Assembly: GCA_944548615.1 (NCBI GenBank)
Contig: OX155980.1
Coordinates: 64,737,595 to 64,801,594 of the forward strand
DNA from: Micropterix aruncella
Taxonomy: Eukaryota; Arthropoda; Insecta; Lepidoptera; Micropterigidae
DNA: 64,000 nucleotides
Direction of reading: 5' to 3'
Part shown: positions 18,778-51,440 of the stretch, piece by piece
Layout of the letters: the number at the start of each line of letters is the position of its first letter
Position numbering within the stretch: position 1 is the stretch's first letter
Translations under genes and position numbers: made by a program
Notes under the pieces: generated by a model
The model's database searches: none
Told to the model about the DNA's origin: nothing
Seen by the model: only the letters and a program-made list of their open reading frames with translations

Positions 18778-19472
18778 TAGTGCTGTCAACTACAACGGGC
18801 GAACCCGTCACCTCAGGAAGTTTTAACGAAATGATCGTTCTTTTAACGAATCTCCCGTGAAGTGAGCGCAGAAGACTTAGGACAAAACAATCCACCGTCA
18901 TGCTCCTCCACCTGCCCGTGAGAGACCAAGGCCTTACGGCGAGGCACCGGGAAAAATAAACAGCTGGCAGCCTCGCCCCCTGACTACTAGTTTTGACAGG
19001 ATATCTCCGTCTGGAATTAAACTTCAGGATACCTCCGTCCTCCCGACTGGTTACGGGTCCGAAGTCGCTTACGCGACCTCTATCTGTTGTATTACAGCGG
19101 TATTTCAGTTCGAATTTATCGCGGACCTGGGCGTTTTTGCCCGTAAAGCCACACGGGATCGAGTGGGCCAAGGTCATTTCAAGAGTGGCATGACAACAGG
19201 TGAACATCCACCCCCGCTGCTTAGGAAACAAAGTATTTAATAGTCTCCAGACTCCTTCAGCAATTAGTCAGAATGCATAACCGATTGGCATCGCCAACCG
19301 GTGCGCAAACCGTCCAGTGGCGCCGGGAGAAACCGGTCCACCATCTCTGAGGCCTGAGACACGGGAGTCTTACCCGGGGTAGCCTTTCACTCGAAGAGGC
19401 TTCTGAATATGAGCTGAATCATGAGTTGAGCCGATCCGAGAACAAAATGGATCTTGTGGCCCAAGCTGCACG
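18778..19472 (-). repeat. R-family copy 3, near full length
   Basis: Minus-orientation copy. It begins at its family end with gtcaactacaacgggcgaac and finishes with the complement of gggccacaagatccattttg, the start of the family. At about 695 bases it is one of the two most complete copies, with 47045-47697. It contains the tRNA-like block gtgcctcgccgtaaggcctt on the minus strand near 18945. Overlapping frames on both strands are not conserved between copies. Confidence 0.65.
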
Positions 19473-23742: not shown

Positions 23743-24245
23743 GTACTGATTTCATTCGACCTTTCATAACAAACCGCTTTTACATACTGTACATCAATAT
23801 TATTAATGTTTTTAAGTTTACGCTGTTATTTGGCATTATGTAATATTTTAATTTTAGGGATTACGGAATTGTACTGATTTCATTCAACCTTTCATAACAA
23901 ACCGCTTTTACATACTGAACATAAATATTATTAATGTTTTTAAGTTTACGCTGTTCTTTGGCATTATGTAATATTTTAATTTTAGGGATTACGGAATTGT
24001 ACTGATTTCATTCGACCTTTCATAACAAACCGCTTTTACATACTGAACATAAATGTTATTAATGTTTTTAAGTTTACGCTGTTCTTTGGCATTATGTAAT
24101 ATTTTAATTTTAGGGATTACGGAATTGTACTGATTTCATTCGACCTTTCATAACAAACCGCTTTTACATACTGTACATAAATATTATTAATGTTTTTAAG
24201 TTTACGCTGTTATTTGGCATTATGTAATATTTTAATTTTAGGGAC
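23743..24245 (+). repeat. 128-bp tandem repeat, 4 copies
   Basis: gtactgatttcattc starts at 23743, 23871, 23999 and 24127: period 128. Copies are nearly identical (for example tgttatttgg versus tgttctttgg). The array is inside the CACTA-like element and directly abuts the inverted repeat at 24258-24472. Confidence 0.9.
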
Positions 24246-48559: not shown

Positions 48560-48687
48560 ACACTATTTTTTATTGTTTTGAAATATCTTCTTCTTCTTCG
48601 TCCTCTCCTATTCACATTATTTGGGGTCGGGTCTCCTCACTTTTCTGCGCCAAGTCAAATGATCTTAGGTTGTCGGTTTGGATAATT
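48560..48687 (-). pseudogene. 3' end of an RTE-type LINE relic (part interrupted by the transposon)
   Basis: The minus strand reads LRSFDLAQKSEETRPQIM then a stop and a run of gaagaagaagaag, resembling the last residues and simple-repeat tail of RTE-type LINEs. It continues the reading of 51174-51440 once the intervening transposon and one AATT are removed. Confidence 0.5.
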
Positions 48688-48973
48688 GAAGGGCTGAAAT
48701 TCTAAAGGGTCTAAGTGCCAAAAAGTTAAAGTCGAGATATAACAAAAAAACTGAATAAAACAAACATTTTGTCGAAATTATTATTTATTTCAATTGAAAT
48801 ACAAAGAAAATTATATTCTTAGTCATGAGACTCCGCCGCCAACCTCTCACACCAACAAATATTTAAAGAAAAAGTATTAAAGTTCCAAAGTCCTGAAATG
48901 TCCTATGTAGGTAACTGAATAATAATAAAAAGGGTCTAAGTGACATGACAACAGTCCTTTAAAATGTGTATTA

Positions 48974-50575
48974 TCAAGCTTCTGTTTTATTGATCAAATC
49001 ATCATAAAATGGTTGGTGTTCAGCAGGTATATACGGCATCATCTGTTTTAGGTCAATTAGTTTTTCTTTTGATATGTTATTCTTGGCAGGCAATATTGGA
49101 AGTACCATATCCTTCAGTTGAGAGGGCATTTTTCCCTTTTTAAAAATGTTGATGGTGTCCCAAGGTATAGGATCATTGAAAGATTGCATTAAATCAACAT
49201 ATGGTAGCCGGTTTTTCTGGATTCTTATCCATGACACAGTTGATATTTTCAATTTTGTTGTATTCAGGAACTCCGTGGAGGCTTCATTGAGGTCTTTAAA
49301 ATCATGTTGGTCCAGTGTTATAGGTTCGAATGGGTTTTTGTGACACGATTCACGTATCATTTTTTCGATATCTGCAGGTTCATAGCATTTGACCACTTTT
49401 TTTCTCTGTTCTATCTGTGCAAAGTCACGATCACATGACATGAAAGAGTGGCCACTGACCAAGTATTTATGATCTATGATATCGAACACGCCATTGGCAA
49501 CTAAATAAATAAGAATAAATAACACCATCCGGTTTTTATTCTGGCCTATGCAGTTGTCGCTCCAAATTACTATTTTTTTTTTTAAAGTATTGGCAGACAT
49601 TATATTTAAAACCTTCAACAGTGAAGAACCAACTTCATTACCTCCTCTTCCGGCATATGATTCATTCCAGAGGCACATGTATGCTTTTTGGTTGTCAGCA
49701 ATATGAACGCAAAGGTTGTAACACGAGAGCTGTCTGCTATAAAACATCTGACTATGAGTCAATGTCGGTATAAAAATGACTTGTTGCATGTCCATAGCCA
49801 TTGTCAACGTATCGCTCGTTGGGGATTGGGATTTTACCGAATCCGCTTTCATTGTATTTTGAGCACTTTCAGCTTTACGGTGATGGTTTTCTAGCTCGAT
49901 AGCAGTATGAGTTTTTTGTCTTCCTTCAGAGCATTTCAGTTTAGCATGAAGAAGATCACACTTTGAACAGGTATCTGTTCGTGGGCGTCCAAACTTCAAA
50001 TAGGGAAAATGCTTTTTGAAGGTTGTAAAGTAATATCTGTAGGTCACAGGCGAGTCTGGGTATTTTTCTTTGAATGCCAGGTATAAACGGTGAATATTAA
50101 GATCGGGGCTTAAATAATATTTTTGAGTTTCATGTCGACTGTAGTGACTTTCTTGAGAAGGGAAAGACTTAATATGATGCAGTACTATCTCGAAAATTTC
50201 AGCAGTGAATTTTCTGGGCTTGTTTCCGGATCCCCGCTTGTCTATGAAAATCACTTCTCCGCGCTTCTTTTTTTCCACCAAAGTCTGGACTTTCTTATGC
50301 GAAATGGCAAAAACAGCTTGAAAAGTCTGACGGCATACCTGGACATGGTTCCCAGTACCGTCTGGCAGAGTATAAGCTACTGATGTTTGTCTGCGACTGT
50401 CTACAGCGTTGGTGTATGTACCGTGTCGCCTTCTTCCAACTGGAGTTATTTGAATGAGCCCGAGAAGATATGTTCCTTGCTTAATAGCGTCTCCAATTCT
50501 ATAGTATTCCATCATAAGGGTTTCTCTCCTCTCGTGTAAAATTTGCCCACAATGAAATTTACACTTGCAGGCAAC
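48974..50575 (-). CDS. Putative transposase, DUF7869-like, main exon
   Basis: Exon 2 begins at 50575 just after a clear acceptor (ttatttcag) and ends at the stop near 48974, giving 533 residues. The open frame continues into the intron to 50632, but those codons are not expected in the protein. Order of motifs, numbered from 50632: cysteine/histidine cluster [10 protein letters not shown] (21-30), [11 protein letters not shown] (133-143), [20 protein letters not shown] (162-181), RTDTCSKCD (218-226) as a probable zinc knuckle, MAMDMQQV (D281), [13 protein letters not shown] (D359), and [15 protein letters not shown] (D401/D403). Three acidic positions on predicted RNase H-like strands suggest a DDD/E transposase. 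This layout matches the multicopy insect proteins usually annotated as uncharacterised or DUF7869-containing. A role in cutting and joining the element's TIRs is inferred from its position between them. Confidence 0.8.
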
Positions 50576-50737
50576 CTGAAATAATAATATAGTTTTTAAA
50601 TAGAAGCACATTATCCAGTGAATGAAAACCACCTTACATTATTTAATTACTAACAGACGAAACGTCGCGTATATTTGCCCAACGATGCTACGCAACTGTA
50701 AGTTATTAAATAATGATTATTAAAAAATAATACTAAC
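50576..50737 (-). other. Predicted 162-bp intron of the DUF7869-like gene
   Basis: Minus-strand donor gttagt after ctgaaagag (exon 1 ends 50738) and acceptor ttatttcag before gttgcctgc (exon 2 starts 50575). Both exons are in phase 0 across this junction: exon 1 ends KIPKKTLKE and exon 2 begins VACKCKFHC. The donor is a little weak (GTTAGT). Confidence 0.6.
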
Positions 50738-50994
50738 CTCTTTCAGCGTTTTCTTTGGAATTTTAATCTTTTTTGATGTTATAACTCCTCCCCGCACAAA
50801 CGACGCTTCTTCCGTTGAATTTTCACATTCTCTTTCCGATTTTTCGCAACATGTGTGTCTGAAGTCGAAGGCACCGGCGTAACGTCCATCTCCATAAACT
50901 TGTTAATTGCCACTGAACGATAGAAAAGACGGCGCCGCCGCGTACCGGTCGCAGCTTGCGCCAGAGCACACACACTCGCCTTTCCGATGCACAC
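50738..50994 (-). pseudogene. Exon 1 of the DUF7869-like gene, frame-broken
   Basis: Upstream of the donor the spliced frame reads ITSKKIKIPKKTLKE and stays open back to about 50905, but without an ATG. The ATG-containing frame (MEMDVTPVPSTSD starting near 50896, followed by a basic KENVKIQRKKRRL) stops at GEEL near 50780, just where the other frame becomes meaningful. Restoring one base near 50780 would fuse them, so this copy probably carries a one-base deletion in exon 1. Alternatively there is another small intron. Acidic/serine-rich then basic N-termini are common in such proteins. Confidence 0.5.
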
Positions 50995-51173
50995 GCATAG
51001 TGGAACATAGACCCGCTCCTTGCTTTAACAGCTTGTGTGTAGTAGTGGGGCGGAGTTAGACACTTAGACTCTTTTATACGACATTGGGCTTGGCACATTG
51101 ATTGTATTTCCGTGAAAATATCGGTTTGAGATTTTTTGGCACTTAGACCCTTTAGAATTTCAGCCCTTCAATT

Positions 51174-51440
51174 GGGCTTTCTTTAGGTCTCTTTCGATGT
51201 TGGACCCCCAGACCTGTGACAGGAGGCCTCTTCCTTTCTTTTGCTCTTAGCAATTTGTACCACATTGTCGTCGTTTTGTCTTTTGACATGCCCATACCAG
51301 CGTATACGGTTTTCGGTGATCTTATCTGCGATTGGTGCAGCCTTAAAGCTACCTCGTATGTGTTCATTACGGATTCTGTCCAGCCTAGTTACACCTTCGA
51401 CCCACCTGATCATCTTAATTTATTGTTTTACTTTGTATAA
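51174..51440 (-). pseudogene. RTE-type LINE C-terminal relic
   Basis: The minus strand reads MIRWVEGVTRLDRIRNEHIR then GSFKAAPIADKITENRIRWY then GHVKRQ, the conserved R-x-R-N-E-x-I/L-R...W-x-GH-x-x-R block near the end of RTE/BovB-like proteins. It is cut at 51173 by the DUF7869-type transposon and resumes at 48683. Confidence 0.7.

Follow-up and report, generated by a model that had tools for sequence, protein, structure and literature searches.

What is the element that carries a gene for a DUF7869 protein in the genome of the moth Micropterix aruncella, and to which of the known kinds of transposon does it belong? The question is raised by a stretch of 64,000 nucleotides (GenBank assembly GCA_944548615.1, contig OX155980.1, positions 64,737,595 to 64,801,594 of the forward strand), the whole of which is called the window here, and in which an earlier note, made from the sequence alone, had described a complete DNA transposon. 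We regard it as next to certain that the element is a DNA transposon, and most likely it represents a new family within a kind already described, the little-studied Sola type. As a whole reading, a cut-and-paste transposon with a DUF7869 transposase of the DDD class, forming a family of the Sola2 group, is one that we hold with considerable confidence.

Ends, copies and insertion sites

The element spans 2,482 bp (window 48688-51169) and is bounded by perfect 37-bp terminal inverted repeats (TIRs) with AATT duplicated on either side, just as the earlier note had it. A repeat finder returned inverted arms at 48684-48724 and 51133-51173, each 41 nt long and with 100% complementarity; arms of 41 nt are reported instead of 37 because the flanking AATT is palindromic and adds to the 37-bp ends. 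A 21-nt end pattern (up to 3 mismatches) occurs at two places in the window, which are the two element ends, while the maximum in 100 shuffles was 0. The features of the window copy are as follows.

48684-48687, no strand: left copy of the AATT target-site duplication (inverted-repeat search and copy comparison)
48688-48724, plus strand: left terminal inverted repeat, 37 bp, perfect (inverted-repeat search and genome end-pattern matches)
48704-48717, plus strand: 14-bp motif (AAAGGGTCTAAGTG) within the left terminal repeat (motif search)
48929-48942, plus strand: subterminal copy of the 14-bp motif, oriented like the left end; probable transposase-binding site
48974-50575, minus strand: exon 2 of the transposase gene; encodes 533 aa and the stop codon and contains the entire DUF7869 match
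50576-50737, minus strand: predicted intron, 162 bp, GT...AG, phase 0
50738-50895, minus strand: predicted exon 1, starting at the first in-frame ATG; it encodes 53 aa where intact and has lost its frame in the window copy
51061-51074, minus strand: subterminal copy of the 14-bp motif with 1 mismatch, oriented like the right end
51133-51169, minus strand: right terminal inverted repeat, 37 bp, perfect (inverted-repeat search)
51140-51153, minus strand: 14-bp motif within the right terminal repeat (motif search)
51170-51173, no strand: right copy of the AATT target-site duplication (inverted-repeat search and copy comparison)

Counted from the start of the element, the 14-bp motif lies at 17 and 242 on one strand and at 2375 (the copy with the mismatch) and 2454 on the other. 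Two internal copies (up to 2 mismatches) were seen in 0 of 300 shuffles of the element interior, and the motif copies are good candidates for transposase-binding sites.

Searching with the ends, as had been suggested, uncovered many further copies in the host genome (1.08 Gb, 742 contigs). A 32-nt end pattern (up to 3 mismatches) had 88 matches on each strand, against 0 for its reversed control, and a DNA search gave at least 40 full-length copies at ~100% identity (40 of the 99 candidates scored), with an element length of 2,482-2,483 bp in 40 of 40. For the junctions we compared 60 copies, namely the window copy, 39 full-length copies fetched with 400-bp flanks, and 20 chosen by hand from end-pattern and protein-search matches, many of these picked for looking defective; all 60 were selected on having ends or full length. 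The 4-bp flanks are identical in 59 of the 60 (AATT 48, ATTT 3, AGTT 3, AAAT 2, ATAT 1, AACT 1, ATGT 1), the single unmatched pair being AAGT/AAGC, and 54 of the 60 copies have matched flanks of the form AWWT. The flanking 4-mer starts with A and ends with T in all 40 copies of the first set, and the identity of the two flanks extends no further than 4 bp in 39 of these 40; in one, at a TA-repeat site, it reaches 6 bp.

Copies of the gene lacking these TIRs, which the earlier note had named as evidence against its reading, did not turn up: among the 45 of 82 protein-search matches that were checked for ends (those on contigs C1-C23), both ends are exact in 42, one in three and none in 0. Two of the three (L033 and L046) have the other end too, the third being the match at C19:11660332. 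Within 4 kb of four left ends (C3:19547604, C3:36659160, C13:19071492 and C21:799063), no protein match is listed. Among the ends listed (the first 100 of 176 places), paired ends enclose full-length, near full-length or longer copies, and no short internally deleted derivatives (miniature inverted-repeat transposable elements) were seen. Two copies, L076 (5,602 bp) and L077 (2,728 bp), hold extra DNA of ~3.1 kb and 245 bp, respectively, inside the transposon.

Empty sites were sought by comparing the joined flanks of the 60 insertions with the available copy flanks and the window sequence, which gave junction-spanning matches for eight of the 60; eight pairs from seven insertions were inspected. 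Sites carrying the 4-mer once, another expectation of the earlier note, were found for other copies, most clearly for L034 against L005 (98.2% identity over 218 bp), L081 against L003 (96.8% over 93 bp, with the left 26 bases aligned and not displayed) and L075 against window 18916-19370 (86% over 473 bp). Older pairs (77-87%) agree less neatly; in L043/L069, for instance, AATT faces AACT. The 40 best-matching copies, a set biased toward the most similar ones, differ from their majority sequence by a mean of 1.075 bases per 2,483, with 11 copies at 0, and from one another by a mean of 2.15 bases; because they are nearly identical, we conclude that the family has transposed very recently.

The gene and its product

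A single long gene is present in the window copy, on the minus strand; its open reading frame (ORF) of 552 aa from a GTG covers 48974-50632; the shorter interval 48974-50575 that had been put forward for the gene holds exon 2. We predict two exons and a protein of ~586 aa (53 + 533), with the phase-0 intron between them predicted to be spliced, and by eye the insect homologues P0033, P0040 and P0113 have similar sequence ahead of the CxC motif. Exon 1 is open in at least 55 of the 60 copies, exon 2 is open at full length in 46, and both are open in at least 43, the first and last counts being lower bounds since L022 was missed through a substitution in the anchor.

A Pfam scan of the element protein (E ≤ 1) gave DUF7869 only (E 2.9e-18). 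A protein search returned 235 relatives, and those with names among the 120 listed are from insects and one spider and bear uninformative names; the most similar of these is from the butterfly Euphydryas editha (74% identity across 54% of the query). Among those listed, insect and bacterial relatives that have names are mostly called "hypothetical" or "uncharacterized". In an alignment of the query with 68 of the 120 (69 sequences), D262, D340, D382, D384 and E389 are invariant, as are C203, C206 and H231; here residues are numbered in the 533-aa exon 2, so that D262, D340, D382 and D384 correspond to D281, D359, D401 and D403 of the 552-aa ORF, the very candidates first proposed, with D401 and D403 as alternatives. 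When insect and bacterial sequences are aligned jointly, D262, D340 and D382 are still invariant and D384 and E389 are not, which points to D262/D340/D382 as the catalytic triad; the third aspartate is probably D382, preferred over D384 because the latter is not kept in the bacterial relatives. The N-terminal cysteines (CxCxxxC and a later VC) and a CxxC...H group are mostly kept in the joint alignment and are putative zinc ligands.

Structure prediction gave the RNase H-like core that a transposase would be expected to have according to the earlier note, its nearest folds being Mos1, SETMAR and retroviral integrases. Together with the presence of the gene between the ends of the copies and the empty sites, this supports the proposal that the DUF7869 protein is a transposase, as it almost certainly is; the domain itself very probably forms the catalytic core of a Sola-type enzyme. 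A single-sequence search of PDB with the element protein gave nothing, and a PDB profile search gave just three chance-level matches (E 0.75-1), to an oocyte protein, with neither a mariner nor an integrase chain among the profile matches at E ≤ 10. A fold search of BFVD had one match at E ≤ 0.001, to a mismatch-repair ATPase, which was set aside (TM-scores 0.15 and 0.16).

Not every copy of the gene is intact, and the word "complete" applied to the window copy holds for its DNA structure and fails for its gene. A 1-bp deletion near 50780, at a base present in 39 of the 39 other aligned copies, puts its exon 1 out of frame, so that the window copy is probably unable to make transposase itself; with its ends intact, it could still be moved in trans by other copies. 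Another defect is common to 15 of the 82 protein-search matches, in which exon 2 is frameshifted (matches with three TAG and one TAA). Ten of the 15 were fetched (L067-L076) and all stop at exon 2 residue 334, while six copies aligned as DNA are near-identical and have the same 1-bp loss at a T run (element position ~885). A reading of these matches as a sister subfamily of 94-95% identity was dropped, since the six aligned copies have nearly the same sequence minus one base of the T run. A single defective copy mobilised in trans may be the source of the 15 matches, or they may reflect repeated homopolymer slippage or assembly error.

In the right flank of the element, window 51183-51413 (minus strand) encodes a stretch that we take to resemble the C-terminal end of a non-LTR (long terminal repeat) retrotransposon protein, and the window copy may have inserted into an older repeat. 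Elsewhere in the window, four exact 12-mer matches at 128-bp spacing (23763-24158) may mark a tandem array, whose period would be 128 bp.

Relatives in bacteria

DUF7869 genes are also found in prokaryotes, where a pattern scan gave 11 bacterial loci out of 39 stretches. Pfam recognised DUF7869 in six of six bacterial proteins scanned, and the insect and bacterial profiles align over 509 columns with an hhalign probability of 99.8%, at a protein identity of 17-24%; four full-length bacterial ORFs are 628-659 aa long. An inverted repeat surrounds the gene at eight of the 11 loci (L056 and L058-L064), which are from sulfur and other bacteria, the three left out (L057, whose contig starts inside the gene, L065 and L066) having no inverted repeat. 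The flanking 4-mer is AWWT in 15 of 16 cases, a count that depends on the junctions having been placed visually, where the G-rich end starts. The end pair of L062 also encloses a second gene that looks like a transposase and is judged unrelated by its position.

When proteins were searched with the bacterial profile, 601 relatives came back; of the 120 listed, many are on contigs of 2-3 kb and none is named "transposase". The distribution of the bacterial elements is patchy, since only one of 297 genomes of the Desulfocicer phylum has a match, namely the query's own; the L058 protein has one match in each of eight genomes. A search of plasmids and phages with the bacterial protein gave no match, and DUF7869 was confirmed in none of the pattern stretches from viral contigs (0 of 18 with the insect profile, 0 of 26 with the bacterial profile). 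The DUF7869 protein P0191 of Candidatus Magnetoglobus is labelled "chaperonin" by its sources, which is probably a misannotation.

Mechanism and placement among known transposons

The life cycle that we propose would begin with the single long gene, encoding a DDD transposase of ~586 aa. The protein would bind the 14-bp motif at its terminal-repeat and subterminal positions at both ends, pair the element ends and cleave the DNA to excise the element. The 3' ends would then be joined across a 4-bp stagger at A-W-W-T sites, and gap repair would leave the 4-bp duplication.

Sola had been named as the first group to compare, and this was a sound choice. Excerpts from PMC10741241 present Sola elements as having DDD transposases and 4-bp duplications, as occurring in bacteria and metazoans, and as being mostly 2-9 kb long with TIRs of 11-1124 bp; those from PMC3627910 give Sola2 elements AT-rich 4-bp AWWT duplications and deem a length of 4 bp consistent with Sola2. 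The present element has a 4-bp duplication that is AWWT in nine tenths of the copies, TIRs and a size within these ranges, and three invariant aspartates in a predicted RNase H-like core, where they would be catalytic. Because duplication length, AWWT target, DDD triad, size and range across bacteria and animals fit the descriptions, we file the element in the Sola2 group of the Sola superfamily, an assignment by published description that we consider likely to hold.

Several points weigh against this reading. The fit to Sola2 is one of published features, and a Foldseek search against PDB gave no match at E ≤ 0.001 (best 2.7e-3). Six of the 60 insect sites are not matched AWWT (AGTT 3, AACT 1, ATGT 1 and the unmatched AAGT/AAGC 1), and the bacterial flank pairs are identical in just three of eight (L056 ATTT, L059 AATT, L060 AAAT), which contig stitching across collapsed copies would explain. 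No empty site for the window copy itself was found in the window or the flanks of the copies, and we infer the activity of the family from its sequences.

The closest competitor keeps the DDD cut-and-paste transposon but assigns it to a superfamily other than Sola, one that shares 4-bp AT-rich targets with Sola by chance and has DUF7869 as its hallmark in insects and bacteria; such a superfamily would unite arthropod transposons with a large body of bacterial insertion sequences that lack annotation, all using AWWT with a 4-bp stagger. The likeness to Sola is by description, the term DUF7869 was not found in the literature searched, and no real NCBIfam match was obtained for the insect protein or for four bacterial ones (one match, E 0.19, far under the cut-off), but the very features that agree with the Sola and Sola2 excerpts make a separate superfamily rather unlikely. 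The frameshifted window copy, the 15 matches with a common exon 2 break and the intact ends of gene-broken copies could instead indicate a non-autonomous element, one moved by a different transposase, with DUF7869 being either a passenger or a gene of host origin. However, DUF7869 is the sole long gene of the window copy, both exons are open in most copies, the predicted fold and invariant triad suit a transposase, and bacterial homologues likewise lie between inverted repeats at similar sites, all of which leaves this a very small chance. Near-identity of the copies is also what segmental duplication or assembly error would give; yet the 12-14-bp flanks displayed differ between copies (by eye), the 4-bp duplication is present in 59 of 60 and empty sites exist, and we give this explanation almost no credence.

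If the Sola-type reading is right, a function is assigned to a Pfam domain so far labelled "unknown function", and the dozens of near-identical host copies with both exons open make Sola-type transposition directly testable. Such activity is as such not new, since excerpts from PMC4735498 and PMC8634313 report that Sola elements of moth hosts have inserted into a baculovirus, but a sequence-defined and naturally intact Sola-type family would be a useful addition. The bacterial relatives also suggest an annotation gap for insertion sequences.

Sola3, piggyBac and Kolobok target TTAA, and they were rejected with TTAA at 0 of 60 copies. Mos1/mariner and the SETMAR transposase domain are among the closest solved folds of the predicted catalytic core, but mariner makes a 2-bp TA duplication (PMC10741241, in excerpt) against 4 bp here, and Tc1/mariner was rejected on this ground. 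Zisupton (KDZ), with a duplication of 8 bp in the excerpted text of PMC12730594, was rejected on the longest identical flanks of 4 bp, or 6 bp in one copy. Retroviral integrases are likewise among the nearest folds, yet Pfam recognises DUF7869 only; for Ginger, a Gypsy-integrase-like core had no Pfam match (E ≤ 1), and a remote kinship could escape such a scan. The prokaryotic DUF7869 elements (Desulfocicer, Thiomargarita, Desulfobacterales and others) have the same triad, inverted repeats and AWWT sites, and differ in that both ends start with GGGG in five of eight, against GAAGGG in the insect element. Sola2, as excerpted in PMC3627910 and PMC10741241, is alike in its 4-bp AWWT duplications, DDD transposase, inverted repeats and occurrence in bacteria and animals, and it differs in detail, the Dictyostelium DFa-2 protein having 888 aa and its families TIRs of 12 or 13 bp (PMC3627910, in excerpt), compared with ~586 aa and 37 bp here.
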